24,451 bases of DNA from a virus. The notes under the pieces were generated by a model. It saw only the letters and a program-made list of their open reading frames with translations, was not told where the DNA came from and did no database searches. Below are positions 812-16,134 of the stretch, piece after piece. Positions within the stretch are counted from its first letter, which is position 1; the number at the start of each line of letters is the position of its first letter. Made by a program: the position numbers and the translations under genes. Location of the stretch: the IMG/VR virus record IMGVR_UViG_3300037587_000418, positions 1-24,451 of that record, one strand, 5' to 3'.

Positions 812-2931
812 ACGCCTGTGTCCCCTGTTGTACGCTTGTACTCAAGCTCATTGGTGTGACTCTGCGCCTGCATCGCCGCAGTGTCTCGGCGTGTGCGATC
901 CTTCGATGTTTCAATCTGAAGTTTACCCTCAAGTGTCTTCATTGAGACGCCTTCACTCAGCGCGATTTTGGCATATCCGAGTTCTCGATCGACCTCGAGC
1001 TTGGCCATCGCAACGCGCTCACGGGACTCGGTGTCTGCCATCTTGGCCTTGTCCGCAGCTTCTTCCTGCCCTTGCTCGTAGGCGGCCTGCACATCGTCCT
1101 CAGTCGGCCCCGACTCACCCTCCTCGTCCTTAAGTAGGAACCGCTTGCCGTCGCCGTACCCATTGGCTGAGAACTGCTCGATTGTAACCTCGTCCCAGTC
1201 GATCCGCTTGGCCTGCTCTGGGTTCTCCGCGATGGATTTAACTGTCCTGGTCAGAGTGTCAGACTTCCGCTGAGGGCTCGTCGCCCCGAGGCCTACATTG
1301 ACTCGCAGCGTCATCGCGTCTTTGCGCATCCGCTCGATCAGCCGCTTCTTGGTGGCTTCCTCGTCCTCACCCTCAACCGCCTCAAACCCTGCGACCTTGC
1401 GACCTTCCTGGAACGCCATGTTGAGCAGCACATCGTCGGTCTCATTCATCCGAATGTAGGCCATCAGCAACTCGAGCTGAGGCTTCATGAATGTCTCAGC
1501 GAACGTCCGAATGTCAAAATCACTGATCGCGTTGCTACCCTCGGCCAGCATCTCCATTCCGCCGACCGTCTCGTTCAACGCGCGGTTGTTCTGGATCGAC
1601 GACCCAGTGAATGATCCGGTGATGTCGTTGCTCTCAGTCTCGAGGCGTTCCTGCTCCTTATAGCTAGACGCGGTGACATCGCTGGTCGTGATGACCTTGA
1701 TATCCCGCTCCACGTCGTTCGTATAAACGCCACCGCCAGGCACGCTCGCCATCAACGCATCCAGGTCGATCGCTGAGCCTCGGCGCAGGATATAGCGCTT
1801 GTTGAGCGCAAGTCGGACGTTATCCATCCGAAGGTTGGCAGTGTCATTGATCGCCATCTGCACCTGCGAGATCAGCTCGGTCGGGGAGCTCGGGGAGAAT
1901 TTATGCGCCTCGATGACGCTGAACCCGTATGTGATCGGCCGGCGACCTACTAGGTATGCTTTCTTCAGCGGGATCGGCCGAGTCAGCAAATTTGATCCGA
2001 TCGTCCAGTACACCCACTCTTTGCCGTCAAGCCTGACGTAGTTCTCGATCGCCATGACGATCTTAAACTCAGGGCGATCCTGTGAGTCAAACTTATCCGG
2101 GCGGTTGTCACCCTCCCGCGCCTGTCGTACCTGGTTATATCGATCGGTGCCTGCCGAGAGGATCTGCTCTCGGGTCAAGGTTAGCCACGGCTCAGCCTTA
2201 GACTCATCCGAATCCTTCATCCGATCCTCGACGTCAACCACATACATCGGCACCAGCCGCAGCACATAGGGGCTCGAGTTGATCGCATCACGCCAGTCGC
2301 ACGCCGGGTCTACGATCAGGCCTTCCGGTGGGATCATCTCGATCACCGGCTTGTCAGACAGCACCTCAGCCTCTGTAAACTCAGACGACTCGCCCTTTTC
2401 AGCCTCGACCTTCTGCTCCCGGTACTCCCATGTGGTATACGTGGCACATGGCCCATAGACGCGGGTGTCCTGCCAGGCGCCGAGCGCGGTGAGGTACCAC
2501 GGGATCGTCTTCTCCAGACGATACTTCATGATGTGCTTGATCATCCGCGCGCTGGCGAGCTGCTCCGGATCACCTCCGTTCTCAGGCGTGATGTCGATGA
2601 TCTCTAGGTTCGAGAACATCGCAGCTGCGAACTGAGCAGCACCTGAGCGTTCAACCGCTCGAGTCAGCGGCCTGAACAGCCGGCTGCGACCTGCATATAA
2701 CTTCGAGGTATAAGCAGACCGACGGTAATGCTTATTGTTGAAGTGGTCCGCGTTCCGCTCCCACTGATTTGTCAGCGCAGCGTTCTGATAATTCTGACCG
2801 GTGGCGAGATTGACCGCGGCAAGGCCGATCCAAAACGAGTCGTCGTGACCTCCCACGTCGGCAGGCGTTACGACCTCAGCACTCGGGTCTTCAATTACCA
2901 GGTCGGTATCCTCAGGGTTTATCTTAGTCAC
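808..2931 (-). CDS. Portal protein (head-tail connector), podovirus type
   Basis: The portal forms the dodecameric ring at one capsid vertex through which DNA is packaged and ejected. The 707-residue product has the size and features of portals from short-tailed phages. Near residues 75-95 there is a basic stretch with RSRLFRPLTR, like the RSKLF-PKTR segment seen in that group. A long central region is followed by a charged helical C-terminus (residues about 600-690) rich in Glu, Lys and Ala. The start is GTG at 2931, which overlaps the stop of the previous gene (GTGA), with AGGA about ten bases upstream. It lies downstream of TerL in the same operon, the usual packaging order. The portal call is from remembered family features and context; no alignment was run. 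Confidence 0.85.
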   Translation of the reverse strand: MTKINPEDTDLVIEDPSAEVVTPADVGGHDDSFWIGLAAVNLATGQNYQNAALTNQWERNADHFNNKHYRRSAYTSKLYAGRSRLFRPLTRAVERSGAAQFAAAMFSNLEIIDITPENGGDPEQLASARMIKHIMKYRLEKTIPWYLTALGAWQDTRVYGPCATYTTWEYREQKVEAEKGESSEFTEAEVLSDKPVIEMIPPEGLIVDPACDWRDAINSSPYVLRLVPMYVVDVEDRMKDSDESKAEPWLTLTREQILSAGTDRYNQVRQAREGDNRPDKFDSQDRPEFKIVMAIENYVRLDGKEWVYWTIGSNLLTRPIPLKKAYLVGRRPITYGFSVIEAHKFSPSSPTELISQVQMAINDTANLRMDNVRLALNKRYILRRGSAIDLDALMASVPGGGVYTNDVERDIKVITTSDVTASSYKEQERLETESNDITGSFTGSSIQNNRALNETVGGMEMLAEGSNAISDFDIRTFAETFMKPQLELLMAYIRMNETDDVLLNMAFQEGRKVAGFEAVEGEDEEATKKRLIERMRKDAMTLRVNVGLGATSPQRKSDTLTRTVKSIAENPEQAKRIDWDEVTIEQFSANGYGDGKRFLLKDEEGESGPTEDDVQAAYEQGQEEAADKAKMADTESRERVAMAKLEVDRELGYAKIALSEGVSMKTLEGKLQIETSKDRTRRDTAAMQAQSHTNELEYKRTTGDTGV

Positions 2932-3368
2932 GACAGGTCTATCCTCGCTTCACCGCTAATAGTTCGCTGGATCTCCATGATGGCTGCTTCACTGAACCTC
3001 GTCCGGCTCAGCCCACTACGCTCCAACATCTCACCGCCGATCCGGCTTACGTCCAGCGCGAACGTGCCAGGGTTTATCTCGTCCATCTTCCAGATCCAAC
3101 CGATCCGCCCTGAGATATGCGCGTTGTAGATCTTAACGATCCCGTTCTGAATGTCAGACACGACCTGCCACCCATGGCCCGGGTACTGCCGGACGAACTC
3201 GCTCCCGACCATCCCTGCGATCTCAGCATCCTTAACCGCGGCGATCGCCTCTTCAGGGGTCTGCGCCATCGACTGCTCAATCACAGCACGCTCAGCGCTA
3301 GCCTTTTTGGCTGCGGTCTTCTCTCGGTTCCGGCGGCGCTCACGCGACAGTGCGTAACTTGGCATCAT
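2928..3368 (-). CDS. Hypothetical phage protein in packaging operon
   Basis: This 146-residue protein has a strongly basic N-terminus (residues 8-25, many Arg and Lys) followed by an Ala/Glu helix and a mixed C-terminal half with Trp and Gly. No family was recognised. Two adjacent ATGs (3368 and 3365) are possible starts. It sits one base after the upstream gene and overlaps the portal start by four bases. The basic head could contact nucleic acid, but that is a guess. Confidence 0.75.
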   Translation of the reverse strand: MMPSYALSRERRRNREKTAAKKASAERAVIEQSMAQTPEEAIAAVKDAEIAGMVGSEFVRQYPGHGWQVVSDIQNGIVKIYNAHISGRIGWIWKMDEINPGTFALDVSRIGGEMLERSGLSRTRFSEAAIMEIQRTISGEARIDLS

Positions 3369-3369
3369 G

Positions 3370-3591
3370 TCAAGGTGCCTTCTGTGGCCACATAACTGGG
3401 TCTTCGAGCCCGTCCGCCCATGCAGTTACGATGGCCAGAATGCTAGACGATGCTGGAAATGATTTATGGTGCCAGCCCTGCACGCCTGGAAAGTCGTCAT
3501 TACTGAGGTTGTTAATCCGCACATAGACTTGCGTCAGCTCCGGTTCAATTACAACTCTCAGCTCTGCATACTCAATTACGGTATTTGCCAT
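3370..3591 (-). CDS. Hypothetical small phage protein
   Basis: The product has 73 residues, looks beta-rich at first (ELRVVIEPELTQVYVRINNL) and has several Trp residues near the end. The start is ATG at 3591 with GGAG six bases upstream, which makes it a credible gene. No family was recognised. It is part of the tightly packed minus-strand operon between TerL and portal. Confidence 0.65.
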   Translation of the reverse strand: MANTVIEYAELRVVIEPELTQVYVRINNLSNDDFPGVQGWHHKSFPASSSILAIVTAWADGLEDPVMWPQKAP

Positions 3592-3594
3592 GGT

Positions 3595-3777
3595 TTACTC
3601 CACAATGTCCTGGTAGCGACGGTAGGTCTGCCCGGGTACTTCAGGGCGTTCAAAGAAGTTGCGACCGCCGAACCGGTACGCCGGGTACGCTCGCTCTCGG
3701 CCATCGAGTTGGTTCACGATCGCTCGGCCGTTCAGTGTTTTGAAGATTACTCTTTTAGTCAAAGGTCGGTTAGCCAT
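3595..3777 (-). CDS. Hypothetical small basic phage protein
   Basis: This 60-residue protein is rich in Arg, Tyr and Phe. A good Shine-Dalgarno (AGGAG, six bases before ATG at 3777) supports it as a real gene despite its size. It starts nine bases after the TerL stop and ends three bases before the next start. No function can be read from the sequence. Confidence 0.65.
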   Translation of the reverse strand: MANRPLTKRVIFKTLNGRAIVNQLDGRERAYPAYRFGGRNFFERPEVPGQTYRRYQDIVE

Positions 3778-3786
3778 GGTCGTCTC

Positions 3787-5493
3787 CTAGATGTGCCCGT
3801 AAGCACTAAATGGGTCAAAGCTACTCTCTGAGCCTCCTGCAATTGTCGTCGATGGCATGCAGAACGTCAATGCCGCCCCATCCGTGATGTCTGTGGACTT
3901 CTTGATCCGCTTCTTGATTTCAGCCTTTGACTCCAGTTGCAGCTGGTCGGTCGTCCGGTCGTGCATGTATGTTATCGCGCAGAGCTCAGTCAGCCACTCA
4001 TCCCGATCCGGTATCGCCGCGCCGGCCTCCAGCCACTCTTTGAGCAGCCAGTACATCTCAGTACGCCGGTTCTTATACCGCTCCCGCTCGATCGCCTTCT
4101 CCGCGAACCCCACCGGCGTTATCCGCTCTCCGAACCCATACCCGACCAACACATCATACACCCCGGCGCCATAGCCACCGGTCGCATCGATACAGACGTG
4201 GTCGATATGGTGCTCACGCAGCGCCATGATTATCTCGTTGGCCACCTCGAGTGTCTTCAGCTTACTTAACCGGCGGTACCACAAGATCACGCGGCCCTGA
4301 CGCAGCACCAACGTGGTGTCGTCATCACCCTCCCGCGCCACGTCCACCCCCAATATCGTCCGTCCGACCGGTATGAACACATGCTCCCGACCGGCCCGCA
4401 TCGCCCGAAGAACAACCTCCGGCGTCACGAGTGCGTTGTTGAGGTCCGCGTTGAACGCCTCAGCTGGGTTGGCCGGATACTCACGCTGGAATTGGGCCAC
4501 GCCGCCGTGCTTGGTTGCGATCTTGTGCCGACGCCACGCCATCTGTTCGTCGTCGAGATTATAAAGATCGACAACCTCCTGCTCGTCGTCAGTCAATTCA
4601 AAGTCAGCCGCCGGCTTGCGACGATACCCTGGCTCCCAGAACCACGGCACGAACACGCGCCAGTACCCATTCCAGTGGGACGGGGGTGTGTCGTCGGCGT
4701 AGCACGCACCCTCCCACATCGAATGGAAGTAGTTGCCGACACCCTTGGCTGTGGACTCAAGGTACACCTCAGTGCCCTCGCCTTCAGGGATTCCCTCCAT
4801 GACTCCATCACTGATCTCTTCGGCCGACGCCCAGTAGCCGACCTCGCTGCCGTGGAAAAACTGTATCGTCTGCGACCGCCCGGTGTCTCCGGTCTTTGCT
4901 GTACCTACAGCGTATTCAGATTCCATCTCACTGAAGATCAGCTCGTTCGCGTTCGACCTCTTCACGATCGGCTTCAGCTCAGCCGGGCAGTGCTCGTGGT
5001 ACCGCTTGGCCATATTGAACAAGTTCTTCGTGGCAGGCGCCTCATGGGCCAAAATGTAGGCATTGATCCCCTCATGTTGCGACGTTTTCCAATACCCTCT
5101 CGCTTCGACCCACGTACTCAGTCCTTGCTGCCGACCCTTCACAATAATGATCCGGATCATCCCATGTGTGGCAAGCATCAGGTTAGCTACCGAGTCTAGA
5201 TACCGCTGCGCGTCGTTGAAGATCAGCGGCTGCACTCCTTTGGTTTTCGTCTTGATTTTCAGGCAGGCCTTGGCAAAATACTCAAAACTTTTCAAGCATC
5301 TCATCACAAACGCATCTATCGTCGACTGATGCCGGCGGGCGCGGGCTGCGTCGTCCTCACCTTGGTGTACGATCTCATCCTCCATCGGGATGTCGAGCAG
5401 GCCTTCAAGCTCCGCGGGCGCGGTGACTACGGCCGGAGGGGCTGGGGGTGGAGGTGGTACTTTGTGAGGTGGTGGTGGGATTGGTAGAGCCAT
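3787..5493 (-). CDS. Terminase large subunit (TerL), packaging ATPase-nuclease
   Basis: TerL drives DNA into the prohead with an N-terminal ATPase and cuts concatemers with a C-terminal RNase H-like nuclease. The 568-residue product shows both. The Walker A-type loop KGRQQGLST lies at about residues 119-127, and the Walker B-like strand QFFHGSEVGYW at about 211-221. The segment FQREYPANPAEAF (335-347) is typical of the linker region. Three acidic nuclease motifs are visible: LGVDVAREGDD (Asp384), CIDATGG (Asp436) and ITDGAA (Asp538). The start at 5493 has AAGGATTAAT before ATG. Unusually, the first 25 residues are a proline-rich tail with runs of four and five prolines. It is the best-supported gene of the minus operon. 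Confidence 0.95.
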   Translation of the reverse strand: MALPIPPPPHKVPPPPPAPPAVVTAPAELEGLLDIPMEDEIVHQGEDDAARARRHQSTIDAFVMRCLKSFEYFAKACLKIKTKTKGVQPLIFNDAQRYLDSVANLMLATHGMIRIIIVKGRQQGLSTWVEARGYWKTSQHEGINAYILAHEAPATKNLFNMAKRYHEHCPAELKPIVKRSNANELIFSEMESEYAVGTAKTGDTGRSQTIQFFHGSEVGYWASAEEISDGVMEGIPEGEGTEVYLESTAKGVGNYFHSMWEGACYADDTPPSHWNGYWRVFVPWFWEPGYRRKPAADFELTDDEQEVVDLYNLDDEQMAWRRHKIATKHGGVAQFQREYPANPAEAFNADLNNALVTPEVVLRAMRAGREHVFIPVGRTILGVDVAREGDDDTTLVLRQGRVILWYRRLSKLKTLEVANEIIMALREHHIDHVCIDATGGYGAGVYDVLVGYGFGERITPVGFAEKAIERERYKNRRTEMYWLLKEWLEAGAAIPDRDEWLTELCAITYMHDRTTDQLQLESKAEIKKRIKKSTDITDGAALTFCMPSTTIAGGSESSFDPFSAYGHI

Positions 5494-8274: not shown

Positions 8275-8448
8275 AAGGGATACTCTGACTGACTAACCAA
8301 TAATGCGCGGGCCTAACCCGATGCTCAAAACCTCGAAACAGCCTATATCTACGCCCAAAAAGAGCGCAAAAAATAGCGACTTACCAAGGTTGGCAAGCAC
8401 TCAAAACTTAGCCGTGTAAAGCTACTACATAATGCTATCAATACGTAA

Positions 8449-8502
8449 CACCAGCAAGCTACTACATAACACCAGCAAGCTACTACATGACACCAGCAAG
8501 CT
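8449..8502. repeat. 21-bp tandem direct repeats (iteron-like)
   Basis: The unit CACCAGCAAGCTACTACATAA occurs at 8449-8469, again at 8470-8490 with one change, and partially at 8491-8502. A related fragment, AAGCTACTACATAA, lies at 8419-8432. The 21-base period is two helical turns, as in iterons that bind initiator proteins on one face of DNA. Confidence 0.75.
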
Positions 8503-8678
8503 CTTTCGAACCATCTAAAGCGATAGACACAAAACACCAAAAATAGACAACACTCAAAATGGTGTCTAAAACGCTGTCTCCTTACTCGCACTAAGACTGC
8601 AGCCATTTTCAGTCACTAGACAGCGATTTGGCTATTTCCATTACTTTAACAGATAATACCTCTTCTCTTCCTCCTTCT

Positions 8679-8905: not shown

Positions 8906-8935
8906 TGTGACTTCGTTTTGATCTGCACATATAAT
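8906..8935 (+). promoter_or_regulatory. Candidate promoter for the plus-strand early operon
   Basis: TATAAT at 8930-8935 is a perfect -10 box. The only upstream partner, TGTGAC at 8906-8911 with an 18-base spacer, is a weak -35. Transcription near 8942 would give an 80-base leader before the endonuclease start at 9023. It would also exclude the longer reading of that gene from 8918. Confidence 0.4.
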
Positions 8936-9022
8936 CACCCAGCGCCTAGGCCTGCAACCGAACTGCTGATAGCTCATCAGCTGGCGCAACCTTCCAAGAG
9001 CTCAGACCATGGAGCAATGGTT

Positions 9023-9568
9023 ATGCATTCTCAAGAACTTACACAACAGCAGCTACAGGACGCCCTGTGGTATTGTAGCGCCACAGGTCGCTTCTTTTGG
9101 CGGTTCGACGGCGGACCTCCACAAGGTGGCGGGTCATGGAGCATTAAAGCTGGTGACCCGGCAGGGCGTCAGAAAATCAAGATATGCGGCACCTTATACC
9201 AAGCACATCACCTGGCCTGGCTCTATACCTGTGGAGCTTTCCCAGATGGGATGCTGTTCCACATAGACGGTGACCTAACAAATAACCGAATTGGAAACTT
9301 ACAACTTAAGGCCCGCAACGGCAGCGCGCCTTCACAGCCGCGGCAACACGACGTAACCCAATGCCCCGGCGTAACCTGGAGCCCTAGAGATAACAAATGG
9401 TTAGCCAACATCACCAGCAACGGCAAAAAGAAATACCTAGGCCTATTTACTGACCACGCTGACGCGGTAACAGCCCGCAAAGCCGCTGAGGTACTGCGCC
9501 AGATCCCGGCTCCACCGGCCGCAGCTCTACCAACTCCACCACCACATCTGCCGACGCCCTTATGGTGA
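9023..9568 (+). CDS. HNH endonuclease with AP2-type DNA-binding domain
   Basis: HNH-AP2 proteins are phage-borne nickases or double-strand endonucleases that often behave as free-standing homing enzymes. The N-terminal part (YCSATGRFFWRFDGG) matches the usual lead-in of these proteins. The HNH core follows, with HHLAWLYTCGAFPDG, HIDGD and NNRIGNLQL. The AP2-like module is GVTWSPRDNKWLANI plus the YLGLFTDHADAVTARKAAE stretch. A proline-rich tail ends the protein. The frame is open from 8918, but ATG at 9023 (181 residues) has GGAG eight bases upstream and begins just before the conserved region, so it is preferred. It is the first gene of the plus operon. Whether it is mobile or has a phage role such as packaging or host DNA damage cannot be told. 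Confidence 0.88.
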   Translation: MHSQELTQQQLQDALWYCSATGRFFWRFDGGPPQGGGSWSIKAGDPAGRQKIKICGTLYQAHHLAWLYTCGAFPDGMLFHIDGDLTNNRIGNLQLKARNGSAPSQPRQHDVTQCPGVTWSPRDNKWLANITSNGKKKYLGLFTDHADAVTARKAAEVLRQIPAPPAAALPTPPPHLPTPLW

Positions 9569-9857: not shown

Positions 9858-9860
9858 ATT

Positions 9861-9882
9861 AACTATTGGAGCTAAAATCATG
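9861..9882 (+). repeat. ATTGGAG leader, copy 1
   Basis: AACTATTGGAGCTAAAATC leads directly into an ATG. The same leader, with small changes, precedes three other small genes at 10612, 11378 and 11561. It carries the Shine-Dalgarno GGAG, but identity extends beyond what ribosome binding needs. Confidence 0.65.
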
Positions 9883-10068
9883 AACCTATACGAAGTAACC
9901 TTAACGAATACTGTTGGCACCCATACCGACATAGTTCAAGGCAAAAGACCAGCTGTTGAGGCCTACGCTGAAAAGGAGGCGAAAGCATACGGTGCTACCG
10001 TCTCCGATATTCACCCAGCCGTAATGCCAGACACCAAAGCTGAGCGAGAGCGTGTAATTATCCTCTGA
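9880..10068 (+). CDS. Hypothetical small phage protein
   Basis: The 62-residue product begins MNLYEVTLTN. An upstream in-frame ATG at 9820 exists, but the repeated ATTGGAG leader points to ATG at 9880. The protein looks like a compact beta-alpha fold with an Ala/Glu/Lys helix in the middle (AVEAYAEKEAKAYGA). Its stop is followed after two bases by a conserved RNA hairpin. No family was recognised. Confidence 0.65.
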   Translation: MNLYEVTLTNTVGTHTDIVQGKRPAVEAYAEKEAKAYGATVSDIHPAVMPDTKAERERVIIL

Positions 10069-10070
10069 TA

Positions 10071-10114
10071 GTATGCCGCCTGGCCATTCTAACGAGTGAT
10101 CAGGCACGGGATAC
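10071..10114 (+). repeat. Post-stop 44-nt hairpin element, copy 1
   Basis: The element runs from GTATGCCGCCTG to CAGGCACGGGATAC. It folds as a long stem: GTAT/ATAC at the base, CCG/CGG and CCTG/CAGG in the middle, and TTC/GAG closing a TAAC loop. It starts two bases after a TGA stop. Copies 2 and 3 lie at 10417 and 11748 and differ mainly by changes that keep pairing or exchange for G-U pairs. There is no T-run, so it is not a standard terminator. Confidence 0.8.
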
Positions 10115-10140
10115 AATCCAACGAATAGGAGACCGCAGCT

Positions 10141-10416
10141 ATGAGGGACTATAAGCTGAACACTGGCAAGGTAGACGTCTGCTGGATCTTAAGAACTTCA
10201 ATCATGCGCAACCTGGCGCACTTACCAGACACGCTAATCGACACACGTGGTAGAATTGAGTGGATTTATCACCAGTGTCTAGTCGATATGCGTGGCCATG
10301 ATTGGAGCAAGTTAAACAAAATCAAAAGCTGGCTGTGCTGGTCAGTATTCTGGTTGCTATTCATCGCTGCAGCAGTGGGCGCTGGGTGGCTCCAGAGCTA
10401 CGCCAACAGCCTGTAA
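10141..10416 (+). CDS. Small tail-anchored membrane protein
   Basis: This 91-residue protein has a soluble N-terminal part (1-60) and one strongly hydrophobic segment near the C-terminus (about 65-85, CWSVFWLLFIAAAVGAGWL), suggesting a C-terminal membrane anchor with the N-terminus in the cytoplasm. AGGAG at 10127-10131 precedes ATG by nine bases. It is flanked on both sides by copies of the 44-nt hairpin, the second beginning directly after its TAA. No family was recognised. Confidence 0.7.
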   Translation: MRDYKLNTGKVDVCWILRTSIMRNLAHLPDTLIDTRGRIEWIYHQCLVDMRGHDWSKLNKIKSWLCWSVFWLLFIAAAVGAGWLQSYANSL

Positions 10417-10460
10417 GTATGCCGCCTGATCATTCCAACGAGTGACCAGGCACGGGACAC
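10417..10460 (+). repeat. Post-stop 44-nt hairpin element, copy 2
   Basis: This copy begins directly after the TAA of the upstream gene and has the same fold and CAAC loop. The final bases are GGGACAC instead of GGGATAC, which weakens the basal pairs. The 16-bp-stem RNA element starts two bases after it. Confidence 0.8.
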
Positions 10461-10461
10461 A

Positions 10462-10603
10462 GTGCGTTTATCTGTGGAGGGTTCGATTCCCTCATGCTGT
10501 GTACGGTGGCAGGGTTCGAGTCCTTGCAGGCGAGTGGGGTAGTGGTTGCCCAGCCGATAGAAACCAGGGTTTAGCCGGAAACAGCGCCCACAGATAAACG
10601 CAC
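10462..10603 (+). ncRNA. Candidate structured RNA with two tRNA T-arm-like hairpins
   Basis: The ends GTGCGTTTATCTGTGG (10462-10477) and CCACAGATAAACGCAC (10588-10603) are a perfect 16-bp inverted repeat closing 110 bases. Inside are two hairpins with canonical T-loop sequences: AGGG-TTCGATT-CCCT (10478-10492) and GCAGGG-TTCGAGT-CCTTGC (10509-10527). A second helix, GCTGT (10496-10500) with ACAGC (10581-10585), extended by CGG/CCG (10504-10506 with 10575-10577), encloses the second T-arm and a GC-rich part resembling a D-arm (GGGGTAGTGGTTGCCC). No complete tRNA cloverleaf can be drawn in either order. No credible coding frame uses this stretch. The element lies between hairpin copy 2 and the next gene's leader, so it reads as an inserted RNA cassette. 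Function unknown; a tRNA mimic or a decayed tRNA cluster are alternatives. Confidence 0.6.
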
Positions 10604-10611
10604 CGACCATA

Positions 10612-10633
10612 AACTATTGGAGTTCAGATCATG
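10612..10633 (+). repeat. ATTGGAG leader, copy 2
   Basis: AACTATTGGAGTTCAGATC precedes the ATG at 10631. It differs from copy 1 at only a few positions after GGAG. Confidence 0.65.
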
Positions 10634-11343: not shown

Positions 11344-11377
11344 CCGCTCAAATCAGCGCCGCGTGCGCGAAAATAGA

Positions 11378-11399
11378 AACTATTGGAGTTAAGACCATG
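11378..11399 (+). repeat. ATTGGAG leader, copy 3
   Basis: AACTATTGGAGTTAAGACC precedes the ATG at 11397. Confidence 0.65.
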
Positions 11400-11582: not shown

Positions 11583-11747
11583 CAAAAATTACAAGAGTTG
11601 TTTCAACTGTGGTGTATCACGCCAGCCGGGCGAGAGATTAAAGTCGGTACTCCGGCAACTGAGCGCGAGGCTGTTACATTTCGCGAGGCGCACTTAGGGT
11701 GCATCGGCGAGCAAGTAGGCAATCGGTACGTGGTCCGCCCCGCGTAA
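11580..11747 (+). CDS. Hypothetical small phage protein, 55 residues
   Basis: The frame encodes MQKLQELFQLWCITPAGREI and a polar remainder ending VVRPA. The start follows GGAG at eight bases. Its TAA is followed at once by hairpin copy 3, the same arrangement as at 10416. No function was recognised. Confidence 0.55.
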   Translation: MQKLQELFQLWCITPAGREIKVGTPATEREAVTFREAHLGCIGEQVGNRYVVRPA

Positions 11748-11791
11748 GTATGCCGCCTGACCACTCCAGCGAGTGGCTAGGCACGGGATAC
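11748..11791 (+). repeat. Post-stop 44-nt hairpin element, copy 3
   Basis: This copy begins directly after TAA. The stem GCCTGACCACTC / GAGTGGCTAGGC closes a CAGC loop. Relative to copies 1 and 2, CATTC became CACTC and GAGTGA became GAGTGG, giving a fully paired upper stem. The element is followed by GGAG and the lipoprotein start. Confidence 0.8.
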
Positions 11792-11807
11792 CAACCGGAG
11801 CAACGCA

Positions 11808-12083
11808 ATGAAACCCATCATTTCATCCATAGCGATAGCGCTATCCGCCAGTTTAGTAGGATGCAGTCAGTCCGCGCCTGTTAAACCTGAGGCACCGCCG
11901 CCGGTAGTGCAGCCTGCTAAAGCGGACCGCATTGTTAATAGCTGCCTGGAGTATAAGCGGTTCGTTATTAAGTACTACGACACCACCGGCAACATGGAGT
12001 ATGTGACGTTCGCATGCCAGCCGATATTTACGTCGAAGCAAGGGCCGCGCCAGAACGCCGTAGAGCTAGCCCCGACGCAGTAA
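11808..12083 (+). CDS. Putative phage lipoprotein
   Basis: The N-terminus, MKPIISSIAIALSASLVGC, is a typical lipoprotein signal with lipobox LVGC, so Cys19 would be lipidated and the mature 73 residues would face the periplasm. The mature part starts with a Pro-rich linker (VKPEAPPPVVQPA) and has two further cysteines (CLEYK and FACQP). GGAG precedes ATG. Small phage lipoproteins include Rz1-type spanins and superinfection-exclusion proteins. No Rz partner is seen next to it, so a spanin role is not supported. Confidence 0.75.
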   Translation: MKPIISSIAIALSASLVGCSQSAPVKPEAPPPVVQPAKADRIVNSCLEYKRFVIKYYDTTGNMEYVTFACQPIFTSKQGPRQNAVELAPTQ

Positions 12084-12133: not shown

Positions 12134-12167
12134 GAGGTGAAACTGATTAACTTTTGAGGTTAAAACG

Positions 12168-12314
12168 ATGGATATTTGGATTGTCTACCACCATAGCGGC
12201 GAAGTAATCGGCGTCTATGACAGTGAAGAAAAAGCGCATGATGTCTGCATACACCTTGCTGGCGACGGTGGTGCTTATGATCATAGAGTATTGAATCAGA
12301 CTATCCCAGCGTAA
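12168..12314 (+). CDS. Hypothetical small phage protein, 48 residues
   Basis: The frame encodes MDIWIVYHHSGEVIGVYDSE and ends VLNQTIPA. The pattern (a strand ending in a turn, a strand, then a helix EEKAHDVCIHLA) is common in small phage proteins. TTGAGG about ten bases upstream may be its ribosome site. Its TAA is followed by the AGGAG of the next gene. Confidence 0.55.
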   Translation: MDIWIVYHHSGEVIGVYDSEEKAHDVCIHLAGDGGAYDHRVLNQTIPA

Positions 12315-13553: not shown

Positions 13554-13582
13554 TTGACCCCTAGGATCTGTAGGCTTATACT
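13554..13582 (+). promoter_or_regulatory. Strong sigma70-like promoter before the IscR-like gene
   Basis: TTGACC (13554-13559) and TATACT (13577-13582) are separated by exactly 17 bases; each box matches five of six consensus positions. Transcription from about 13589 gives a 25-base leader before ATG 13614. The spaced pair ACCT and AGGT (about 13590-13606) lies at the start site and might be part of an operator for the product itself. Confidence 0.75.
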
Positions 13583-13613
13583 CTAAGTACCTACAATTCT
13601 AGAGGTCACCACC

Positions 13614-13961
13614 ATGCTCATCGGAACCAAGTCAAAACACGCTGTGATCGCCATGGCCAACCTGGCGTTCGATTTTACCATTCACGGCTATCCCGTCTCA
13701 TTAACATCCCTCGCCAAGACGCAAGACGCCTCAGTTTCGTACCTGGAGCAGATCTTCGCCGACCTCCGTAAGGCCGAGCTGGTGATCAGCACGCGCGGCC
13801 CCGGCGGCGGCTACGTGGTAACCAGCCTGGATATCACGGTCGCCCAGATCGTCAACGCAATACACGAGCAGCCCGCCGAGGAGGCAACCGGTTGGAAGGC
13901 CGTGGAGCGCCGAGTGGGCGAGAGCCTCAATAGCGTCACACTGCGCGACCTGTTGGTCTAG
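13614..13961 (+). CDS. IscR/Rrf2-family transcription regulator lacking Fe-S cysteines
   Basis: Rrf2-family winged-helix proteins such as IscR bind DNA as dimers and sense Fe-S status through a [2Fe-2S] cluster held by three cysteines. This 115-residue protein keeps the DNA-binding part closely: residues 27-48 (PVSLTSLAKTQ then SVSYLEQIF), the ADLRKAELV helix and the wing RGPGGGY (61-67). The dimer helix also looks conserved (TVAQIVNAIHE). It contains no cysteine at all, and the segment where IscR carries its cysteine cluster is shortened to about 20 residues. It should therefore behave like constitutively cluster-free IscR. The gene has its own promoter and sits nine bases before the next gene, which shares AGGAGGTCAC. 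A regulator of phage genes only is the alternative to host control. Confidence 0.85.
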   Translation: MLIGTKSKHAVIAMANLAFDFTIHGYPVSLTSLAKTQDASVSYLEQIFADLRKAELVISTRGPGGGYVVTSLDITVAQIVNAIHEQPAEEATGWKAVERRVGESLNSVTLRDLLV

Positions 13962-13969
13962 GAGGTCAC

Positions 13970-14251
13970 ATGGAGAATAACGTAATCATACTTACGACAG
14001 ACAGCGCAGCAGCGCTAGCCACCGCGATCACGCTTGAGGTCAGCGCCGAGATAGTGATCGTCGATGAGATACCAGCGACCCGATCGGTAACTGGAGAGGA
14101 TGCAATCTTCGGTCGCGTCGACACCATCCGCTACATCTCGTGCCCTGAGCCACCAGCAATAGCATATTCAGAACCCCGACGCGGCGGCAAGGGCCGAGGC
14201 CGTGGTCGAGCGGACTGGAACAAAACGAACCGAGGGTACTGGGATGACTAA
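13970..14251 (+). CDS. Hypothetical phage protein with Gly/Arg-rich tail
   Basis: This 93-residue protein has a strong ribosome site (AGGAGGTCAC directly before ATG). Residues 1-60 look like an alternating alpha/beta fold. The C-terminal part is basic with RRGGKGRGRGR, an RGG-like stretch that often binds RNA or DNA. Co-transcription with the IscR-like regulator may link the two functions. No family was recognised. Confidence 0.65.
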   Translation: MENNVIILTTDSAAALATAITLEVSAEIVIVDEIPATRSVTGEDAIFGRVDTIRYISCPEPPAIAYSEPRRGGKGRGRGRADWNKTNRGYWDD

Positions 14252-14658: not shown

Positions 14659-15040
14659 TTACATCTGGATGCTCGACGATGGCTGTGTCCGAGGATGCAT
14701 GAGCTGTCTATCCGAAGTCCCGCTGCGTGAGTTCAGCACGCCGCATGGGGAACAGCGACCAGGATGCACTGATGGTAAGCAGCTCTTATGTGAGCTGTGT
14801 GCGGACTCTGCCATTTCAGCCATGACCTTATGGGAGCATAACCGTGAGTACCATCAGATGGCCAGGGCGACCGCACAAGCCGCGAACTTCACGGTCAAGA
14901 AGCTGGGCGGGTTCAAGGGCGTCAAGTCGAACTGCCCGGACTGCAGTGGCGCCGGTGAGATGGAGTTCGTCGAGGGATATGACGATCAGCAGGCATTAGT
15001 ATCAATACCGTGCGAGACATGTAAAGGAGTAAACCTATGA
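14651..15040 (+). CDS. Zinc-ribbon protein with DnaJ-like cysteine repeats
   Basis: This 129-residue protein has four CxxC pairs: CMSC (16-19), CELC (47-50), CPDCSGAG (95-102) and CETCKG (121-126). The last two match the CxxCxGxG repeats of the DnaJ zinc-binding region and probably form one zinc site; the first two may form another. AGGAG seven bases upstream selects ATG 14651 over the GTG at 14648. Its stop overlaps the rtcB start (ATGA), so the two proteins are made together, which hints at a link to RNA handling. That link is inference. Confidence 0.7.
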   Translation: MTDYIWMLDDGCVRGCMSCLSEVPLREFSTPHGEQRPGCTDGKQLLCELCADSAISAMTLWEHNREYHQMARATAQAANFTVKKLGGFKGVKSNCPDCSGAGEMEFVEGYDDQQALVSIPCETCKGVNL

Positions 15041-16134
15041 AGCAAACTAAAATTTACGCTGAGCATCTAGAGCAGACAGCACTGGATCAGTTCAACAGTG
15101 CGATGGAGCAAGACTTCGCGGTTAAAGGTGCGCTGATGCCTGACGCCCACACCGGCTACACCTTGCCGATAGGTGCAGTGGTAGCTACTGACGGTGTGAT
15201 CGTGCCCTCATGGGTCGGCTACGACATCGGTTGTGGTATGTGTGCAGTGCAGACGACGTTCAACGTCGATGAGATCAAGTACGCGAGCAAGCGTATTTTC
15301 GATGAGATATATCGTCGAGTGCCGGTCGGGTTCCACGTCAACGACAAGCCGATTGAGTGTCACCTCGATCCCGACGACCTGACTGAGCTTGGGCGTAAGG
15401 CGTTCGACGGTAGGAAAGGATTCCGCGCGCTGGGTACCCTCGGCGGCGGCAACCACTTCATCGAGATTGGATACGACAAGGCTGACGTAGTCTGGATCAT
15501 CATTCACTCAGGTTCGCGCGGTGTCGGTCACGGTGTCGCTACTGAATACATGCGGCTGGCATCAGGCACCGGCAAGGTCAAGGAGGGACACTTCGGACTG
15601 GACGTTAAGAGCGATGCCGGCATGTGCTACATCCGCGATCTGAACTTGGCACTGGCGTACGCACTGACTAATCGCCAGGAGATGCTGCACCGGGTCCAGG
15701 CTGCCATGACTAACTATTGCACCGGTGAGATTCTATGGGCCTCACTGATCAACCGGAATCATAACCACGCCGAAGAACGTGATGGTCTGTGGATTCACCG
15801 CAAGGGCGCGACACACGCCGAAGCGGGGATGATGGGGGTGATACCCGGCAACATGAGGGATGGGACATTCATCGTGCGTGGCAAGGGCAACCCTGATGCT
15901 CTGTGGTCCAGCTCCCATGGCGCTGGTCGTGTGATGGGTCGCAAGCAGGCCAAGCGTGAACTGCACACCGATGACTTCAAGGTAGCCATGCGAGGTGTGA
16001 CCGCGAAGGTATGCGACAGCACGCTGGACGAGTCGCCGATGGCATACAAGAACATCTTCGAAGTCATGGCGCTACAGGCTGATCTGGTCGATGTGGTCGC
16101 GTACATTAAGCCGATAATTAACGTCAAGGGGTAG
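15037..16134 (+). CDS. rtcB: RtcB-type RNA ligase (3'-phosphate to 5'-OH)
   Basis: RtcB joins RNA 2',3'-cyclic phosphate or 3'-phosphate ends to 5'-OH ends using GTP and Mn2+. It seals tRNA halves and repairs ribotoxin-cut RNA. All core motifs are present in 365 residues: PDAHTGYTLPIG (35-46), VGYDIGCGM (Asp63, Cys66), GTLGGGNHFIE (Asn139, His140), HSGSRG (His157), NHNH (His242), HRKGATH (254-260) and SSSHGAGR (291-298) with His294 as the residue expected to carry GMP. It ends with ESPMAYKNI and KPIINVKG, as in bacterial and archaeal RtcB. The length is slightly short compared with E. coli RtcB (about 408). AAAGGAG precedes the start. In a phage it may counter tRNA-cutting host defences or process phage RNAs. 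Confidence 0.95.
   Translation: MKQTKIYAEHLEQTALDQFNSAMEQDFAVKGALMPDAHTGYTLPIGAVVATDGVIVPSWVGYDIGCGMCAVQTTFNVDEIKYASKRIFDEIYRRVPVGFHVNDKPIECHLDPDDLTELGRKAFDGRKGFRALGTLGGGNHFIEIGYDKADVVWIIIHSGSRGVGHGVATEYMRLASGTGKVKEGHFGLDVKSDAGMCYIRDLNLALAYALTNRQEMLHRVQAAMTNYCTGEILWASLINRNHNHAEERDGLWIHRKGATHAEAGMMGVIPGNMRDGTFIVRGKGNPDALWSSSHGAGRVMGRKQAKRELHTDDFKVAMRGVTAKVCDSTLDESPMAYKNIFEVMALQADLVDVVAYIKPIINVKG

Follow-up and report, generated by a model that had tools for sequence, protein, structure and literature searches.

The window analysed here, a viral record of 24,451 bases, carries a gene for a cysteine-free, Rrf2/IscR-like regulator of 115 aa (13614..13961, + strand), and the promoter of this gene lies within an inverted repeat that is kept in related contigs; it is this promoter-in-dyad arrangement upstream of the regulator gene that is new here. 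Judged from its sequence, the product is a conserved, sensor-less Rrf2/IscR-type phage regulator. The reading that we favour, with somewhat better than even confidence, is that of a dimeric, cluster-independent Rrf2 factor whose primary target is its own promoter, leading to negative autoregulation of a phage operon.

The family assignment of the protein relies on several searches. Pfam Rrf2 (PF02082) is matched with an E-value of 3e-17 and 63.4 bits against a curated cut-off of 30, and the top match of a sequence search of the PDB is IscR 4hf0 (7e-14); the resemblance to IscR is far beyond chance. The more specific IscR profile TIGR02010 is matched with 80 bits over residues 1-86, below its equivalog cut-off of 207.55. 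PHROG 24072, a phage sequence cluster without an assigned function, is matched by the window protein (E 6e-22) and likewise by 24/24 members of alignment A3, and its profile also accepts a three-cysteine protein, L012, which is discussed below. The close family comprises the window protein together with L002/L003 (72%) and L009 (65%, best segment), and the coding sequence of the regulator is under purifying selection, with dN/dS values of 0.41, 0.31 and 0.29 in the comparison of three contigs.

When considered from the side of the DNA-reading surface, the protein follows IscR closely. The alignments place the recognition-helix segment ASVSYLEQIFADLRK (residues 39-53; 13728..13772, + strand) on E. 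coli IscR ISLSYLEQLFSRLRK, so that IscR S38, S40, Y41, E43 and Q44 correspond to S40, S42, Y43, E45 and Q46 in the phage protein (5/5 kept), and the wing STRGPGGGY (residues 59-67; 13788..13814, + strand) on SVRGPGGGY of IscR, R61 and G62-G66 being identical to R59 and G60-G64. Helix residues S40, S42, Y43, L44 and E45, as well as wing residues R61, G62, G65, G66 and Y67, are invariant in the 24-sequence alignment A3. The IscR residues considered as DNA-contacting (S40, Y41, E43, Q44, R59 and G60-G64) are partly discussed in the literature (PMC9338935). Every contact position checked matches E. coli IscR, in agreement with the original observation that helix and wing are preserved almost intact. 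The remaining residues of this set likewise count as DNA contacts of IscR.

The sensory part is missing. The protein has zero cysteines, and counterparts of the IscR cluster ligands Cys92, Cys98, Cys104 and His107 are absent from it in the alignments; in their place lies a shortened loop (residues E85-W94; 13866..13895, + strand), which from Glu85 to the conserved Trp counts 8 residues versus 24 in E. coli IscR, and is thus 16 shorter. Both the loss of all cysteines and the shortening of the cluster loop, as claimed beforehand, are therefore borne out. The L002 protein, 72% identical, has one cysteine, Cys70, which is located in the wing strand and not at a cluster-ligand position. The dimer helix that follows the loop (W..VERRV..SLNSVTLRDLL) is retained. 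An AlphaFold2 model of the monomer, built from the 24 sequences of alignment A3 (mean pLDDT 88.4, pTM 0.81), contains the winged-helix fold and the C-terminal dimer helix. Foldseek ranks apo-IscR first for this model (TM 0.86, E 1e-9), and the superposition on IscR that had been proposed as a check gives, with VIA-align on apo-IscR 4hf0, a Z of 17.5 and an rmsd of 1.8 Å over 108 residues, spanning residues 1-115; among the viral models of BFVD, M4M9K8 alone clearly resembles the window protein. The protein thus shares with E. coli IscR the fold, the recognition helix, the wing residues and the dimer helix, and it differs from IscR in its lost ligands and in being encoded by a phage, with no isc genes as neighbours in the window. 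The model supports an IscR-like DNA-binding protein that would be cluster-independent, and apo-IscR-like, cluster-free DNA binding is predicted because the cluster ligands are gone.

A cluster-free Rrf2 regulator is already known in CymR, which acts in the cysteine metabolism of B. subtilis and S. aureus, and the phage protein resembles CymR in the Rrf2 fold, the lack of an Fe-S cluster and a similar length. The DNA binding of the phage protein might accordingly be switched by a partner protein or a small ligand, as in CymR, instead of being constitutive, which we regard as rather unlikely. The fit of the model to CymR (2y75; Z 15.5, 113 residues, 2.5 Å) is only slightly poorer than that to IscR, and the match to the CymR profile NF047409 runs over the full length, residues 1-113; its 58.3 bits nevertheless miss the equivalog cut-off of 195, the window protein scores higher to IscR in sequence, and no cysteine-synthase homologue that could serve as a CysK partner was recognised among the window proteins searched. 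A point in favour comes from a bacterial cysteine-free relative, L105, in which a cysteine-synthase-like gene, as read from the sequence, lies ~0.5 kb downstream. This locus (Rrf2 gene at 2501-3025, cysteine-synthase-like gene at 3496-4452) is found in a betaproteobacterial MAG and belongs to a group present in many Rhodoferax; its Rrf2 protein is possibly a CymR-like regulator in Proteobacteria.

How common is the loss of the cysteines? Scanning of viral sequences with alignment A1 yielded 80 loci, equivalent to 35 distinct proteins, and the C-x(4-8)-C-x(4-8)-C motif is absent from 34/35 of these distinct viral relatives; the lack of the triad extends to the closest relatives of the window protein, which supports cluster independence. 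The same motif is absent from 42/80 of the nearest bacterial relatives, a figure biased towards cysteine-free proteins, since the query of the similarity ranking was itself cysteine-free. The candidate for a three-cysteine phage relative, L012 (43%, C-C-C motif), was rejected: it lies near a contig end and groups with bacterial IscR, so this DNA may come from a host rather than a phage. To judge by the proteins retrieved, cysteine-free homologues are nothing unusual among Rrf2 proteins of bacteria and prophages, and the window protein is not exceptional; cysteine loss alone is therefore no sign of host takeover.

The majority of the viral loci retrieved belong to an enterobacterial lambdoid prophage group that includes Citrobacter phage Chris1, whose annotation lists its copy as an iron-sulfur cluster regulator. 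These lambdoid Rrf2 proteins (Chris1 "IscR" and those of Klebsiella prophages) resemble the window protein in being phage-borne, cysteine-free or nearly so, and devoid of the cluster loop, and differ from it in their sequence (~40-45% identity), C-terminus, clade and context, the Chris1 gene being near cro and exoVIII; the promoter block described below found no match in two lambdoid upstream stretches (L005, L006). L013-L088, mostly enterobacterial prophages of Klebsiella, Kluyvera and Citrobacter, form a large cysteine-free Rrf2 group, of which no description was found in the papers searched, and a search of the open-access literature did not turn up any account of an IscR/Rrf2 regulator encoded by a phage. 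On the tree, the phage label changes five times, at least four of these changes being forced by well-supported branches, for a short protein with long branches. Phage Rrf2 proteins are thus not one clade in this data set, and IscR-type phage proteins without the sensor have apparently been acquired more than once. When bacterial genome contigs were scanned for hosts of the close family or for prophages that carry it, no relative emerged, and a second scan gave only relatives at 32-54%; no integrase was found in the window and its close relatives, whose records are fragments.

Upstream of the gene, a σ70-type promoter, TTGACC-17-TATACT (13554..13582, + strand), matches the consensus at 10/12 positions. 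Its -35 and -10 hexamers are identical in the window, L002 and L009, and are separated by 16 or 17 bases across these three related contigs. The promoter scan of the window is overall at chance level, with no more promoters than in shuffles, and since the scan itself does no better than this, it is conservation that supports the call. Across the three contigs, 41/64 columns are invariant between -62 and -1 versus 12/174 further upstream, so that promoter and dyad are kept while the sequence above them is unrelated.

The dyad is an imperfect inverted repeat (13555..13608; arms at ~13555-13576 and 13587-13608), a candidate operator and/or RNA hairpin, which covers the spacer between -35 and -10, the predicted transcription start and the Shine-Dalgarno. 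The latter, a GAGG (13602..13605, + strand) located 8 nt before the ATG, lies inside the right arm and is paired in the predicted hairpin. The arms are complementary at 14/14 positions in L002, longer in L009 with one mismatch and small bulges, and weaker in the window; the corresponding dyad scores are 15.5, 16.8 and 12.1 (shuffle mean for the window 5.8, sd 1.0), and in each of the three contigs the score lies above 60/60 shuffles. Two-sided changes occur in 4/22 dyad pairs, compared with 1.6 in shuffles, 9/500 of which reach as high a count, and they drop to 0 or 1 when the dyad partner is slid by 1-3 columns; for the outermost of these four pairs and for another close to the loop, one of the sequences is unpaired. 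These compensatory changes, from three sequences, may thus back conserved pairing, being suggestive rather than conclusive. The dyad can furthermore be tied to the regulator gene because, among 42 leaders in the window (a few gene starts being approximate), its leader is the sole extreme, with a folding z of -4.2 against -2.4 for the next. When an arm pattern with up to two mismatches was searched for in the window and in relatives of 57 kb, 28 kb and 16 kb, exact and near matches appeared solely at the regulator promoter, and further two-mismatch matches were no commoner than in the reversed control. A half-arm search of the window with 3 mismatches remained at chance level, a scan of viral contigs with the promoter/dyad pattern returned only contigs already known, and an Rfam search of the window gave no match.

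Autoregulation is usual for Rrf2 regulators. The RsrR protein has been crystallised with a fragment of the rsrR promoter (PDB 6y42), and in E. coli the isc promoter is itself bound by IscR (PMC4055776). In the mechanism proposed for the phage protein, deletion of the cluster loop would allow DNA to be bound without an iron-sulfur cluster, like apo-IscR; with Rrf2 dimers placed on the repeat arms (13555-13608), the transcription start, the -10 box and the stretch between -35 and -10 would all be covered, and this occupancy would repress the regulator gene and probably also the genes behind it. An autoregulator is the best reading because the regulator's own promoter carries a conserved dyad, known from three homologous promoters, whose arms do not recur convincingly elsewhere in the contigs. 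The original suggestion that the protein regulates phage promoters without sensing fits best as far as this conserved repeat goes, from which we infer binding of the protein to the dyad, repression as its outcome, and the absence of any further gating signal. Two features count against the operator reading: a single Rrf2 dimer would need neither arms of this length nor complementarity of this degree, and both the Shine-Dalgarno in the right arm and a core stem pair that deviates in the window and is G-U compatible fit an RNA hairpin.

The repeat may indeed be mainly an RNA device, a possible reading to which we give clearly less weight than to autoregulation, with which it is compatible. Read-through transcripts would then bury the Shine-Dalgarno, those from the internal promoter, beginning only at the right arm, would be free of the left arm and be translated, and the protein would act at sites elsewhere. 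Besides the G-U pair, this is favoured by a very stable predicted stem covering the Shine-Dalgarno (-23.5, -26.0 and -30.6 kcal/mol in the three contigs; z -4.3, -7.0 and -6.8), although any long DNA dyad would also give such fold energies, and by the location of the -35 and -10 elements in the left arm and loop of the predicted hairpin. T4 gene e and I-TevI are known to have the same architecture, in which a hairpin occludes the ribosome-binding site and contains or adjoins the promoter (PMC3014915), and the window leader combines a stable predicted stem over the Shine-Dalgarno with an internal promoter as in the gene e type. In contrast to the T4 late promoter of those cases, the promoter here is of the σ70 type, which gives no hint of a late class; the genes also differ, and homology is not expected. 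Moreover, a device for timing would perhaps serve several genes, whereas the hairpin is found at the regulator gene only among the 42 window leaders. That one and the same block serves both as DNA operator for the sensor-less repressor and as read-through RNA hairpin hiding the repressor's ribosome-binding site is a tentative and rather improbable proposal; if it were true, synthesis of the regulator would be strictly tied to the firing of its own autoregulated promoter.

Finally, the protein might sit on host IscR type-2 sites of the suf and hya type and impose an apo-IscR programme on the host. In E. coli, apo-IscR binds type-2 and not type-1 sites, without a cluster (PMC4055776, PMC4169559), and all IscR DNA-contacting residues checked are kept in the phage protein, including the equivalent of Glu43 (Glu45). 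Such a takeover is nevertheless very unlikely, as conservation and dyad point to the protein's own promoter. The type-2 motif at the phage promoter (13555-13579) scores 7/9, whereas six other window matches reach 8, and the best matches of the window, L002 and L009 stand in differing registers; the preferred sequence may therefore differ from that of IscR. When the window, L002 and L009 were searched with two published consensus forms of the type-2 box, no site stood out or proved to be conserved; a 15/16 match to the looser form occurs in L002 (5512-5536), in a register unlike that of the window and L009 sites. No Fe-S, isc or suf gene was recognised by Pfam among the 20 window proteins searched, a set that excludes small ORFs and DNA beyond the contig. 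With neither a conserved type-2 box nor a recognised Fe-S gene in the window, the original idea that the protein locks host iron-sulfur control in the apo state gains no support from the window.

Behind the regulator, an ORF of 93 aa with a GGKGRGRGRADWNK tail (13970..14251, + strand) is probably co-transcribed with it. The gene also occurs in L009, directly behind the regulator, and in L002, where one more gene intervenes, and the protein has no Pfam or PHROG match above cut-off. An RtcB-type RNA ligase gene (15037-16134; Pfam 1e-87) is located further downstream on the same strand. HNH/AP2-type endonuclease genes occur at variable positions, namely at 8918-9568 in the window (Pfam) and, by reading, at 747-1244 and 4996-5514 in L002, where one of them stands between a conserved upstream gene and the IscR-like gene. 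A 51-nt hairpin-capable repeat without a T run is present in three copies that are 76-86% alike (10065-10115, 10411-10461 and 11742-11792), the third of which ends right before an ORF at 11808 (leader z -2.4); the repeat has no Rfam match. A 25-nt ribosome-binding leader ending in ATG, of the ATTAACTATTGGAGCTAAAATCATG type, recurs four times with a spacing of 751-771 bases (9858-9882, 10609-10633, 11375-11399 and 12146-12170). A perfect 16-nt inverted repeat has its arms 110 bases apart (10462-10477 / 10588-10603), and tandem 21-base repeats of the AAGCTACTACATAACACCAGC type (8419-8504), possibly replication iterons, lie between two oppositely oriented gene halves.

The conserved promoter dyad provides a single short DNA fragment that allows a direct test of both the operator and the RNA-hairpin model, and sensor-stripped phage proteins of the IscR type are natural test objects for the Rrf2 scaffold without its cluster. 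If phage proteins of this kind do read host type-2 boxes, infection could shift the regulation of Fe-S metabolism in the host.
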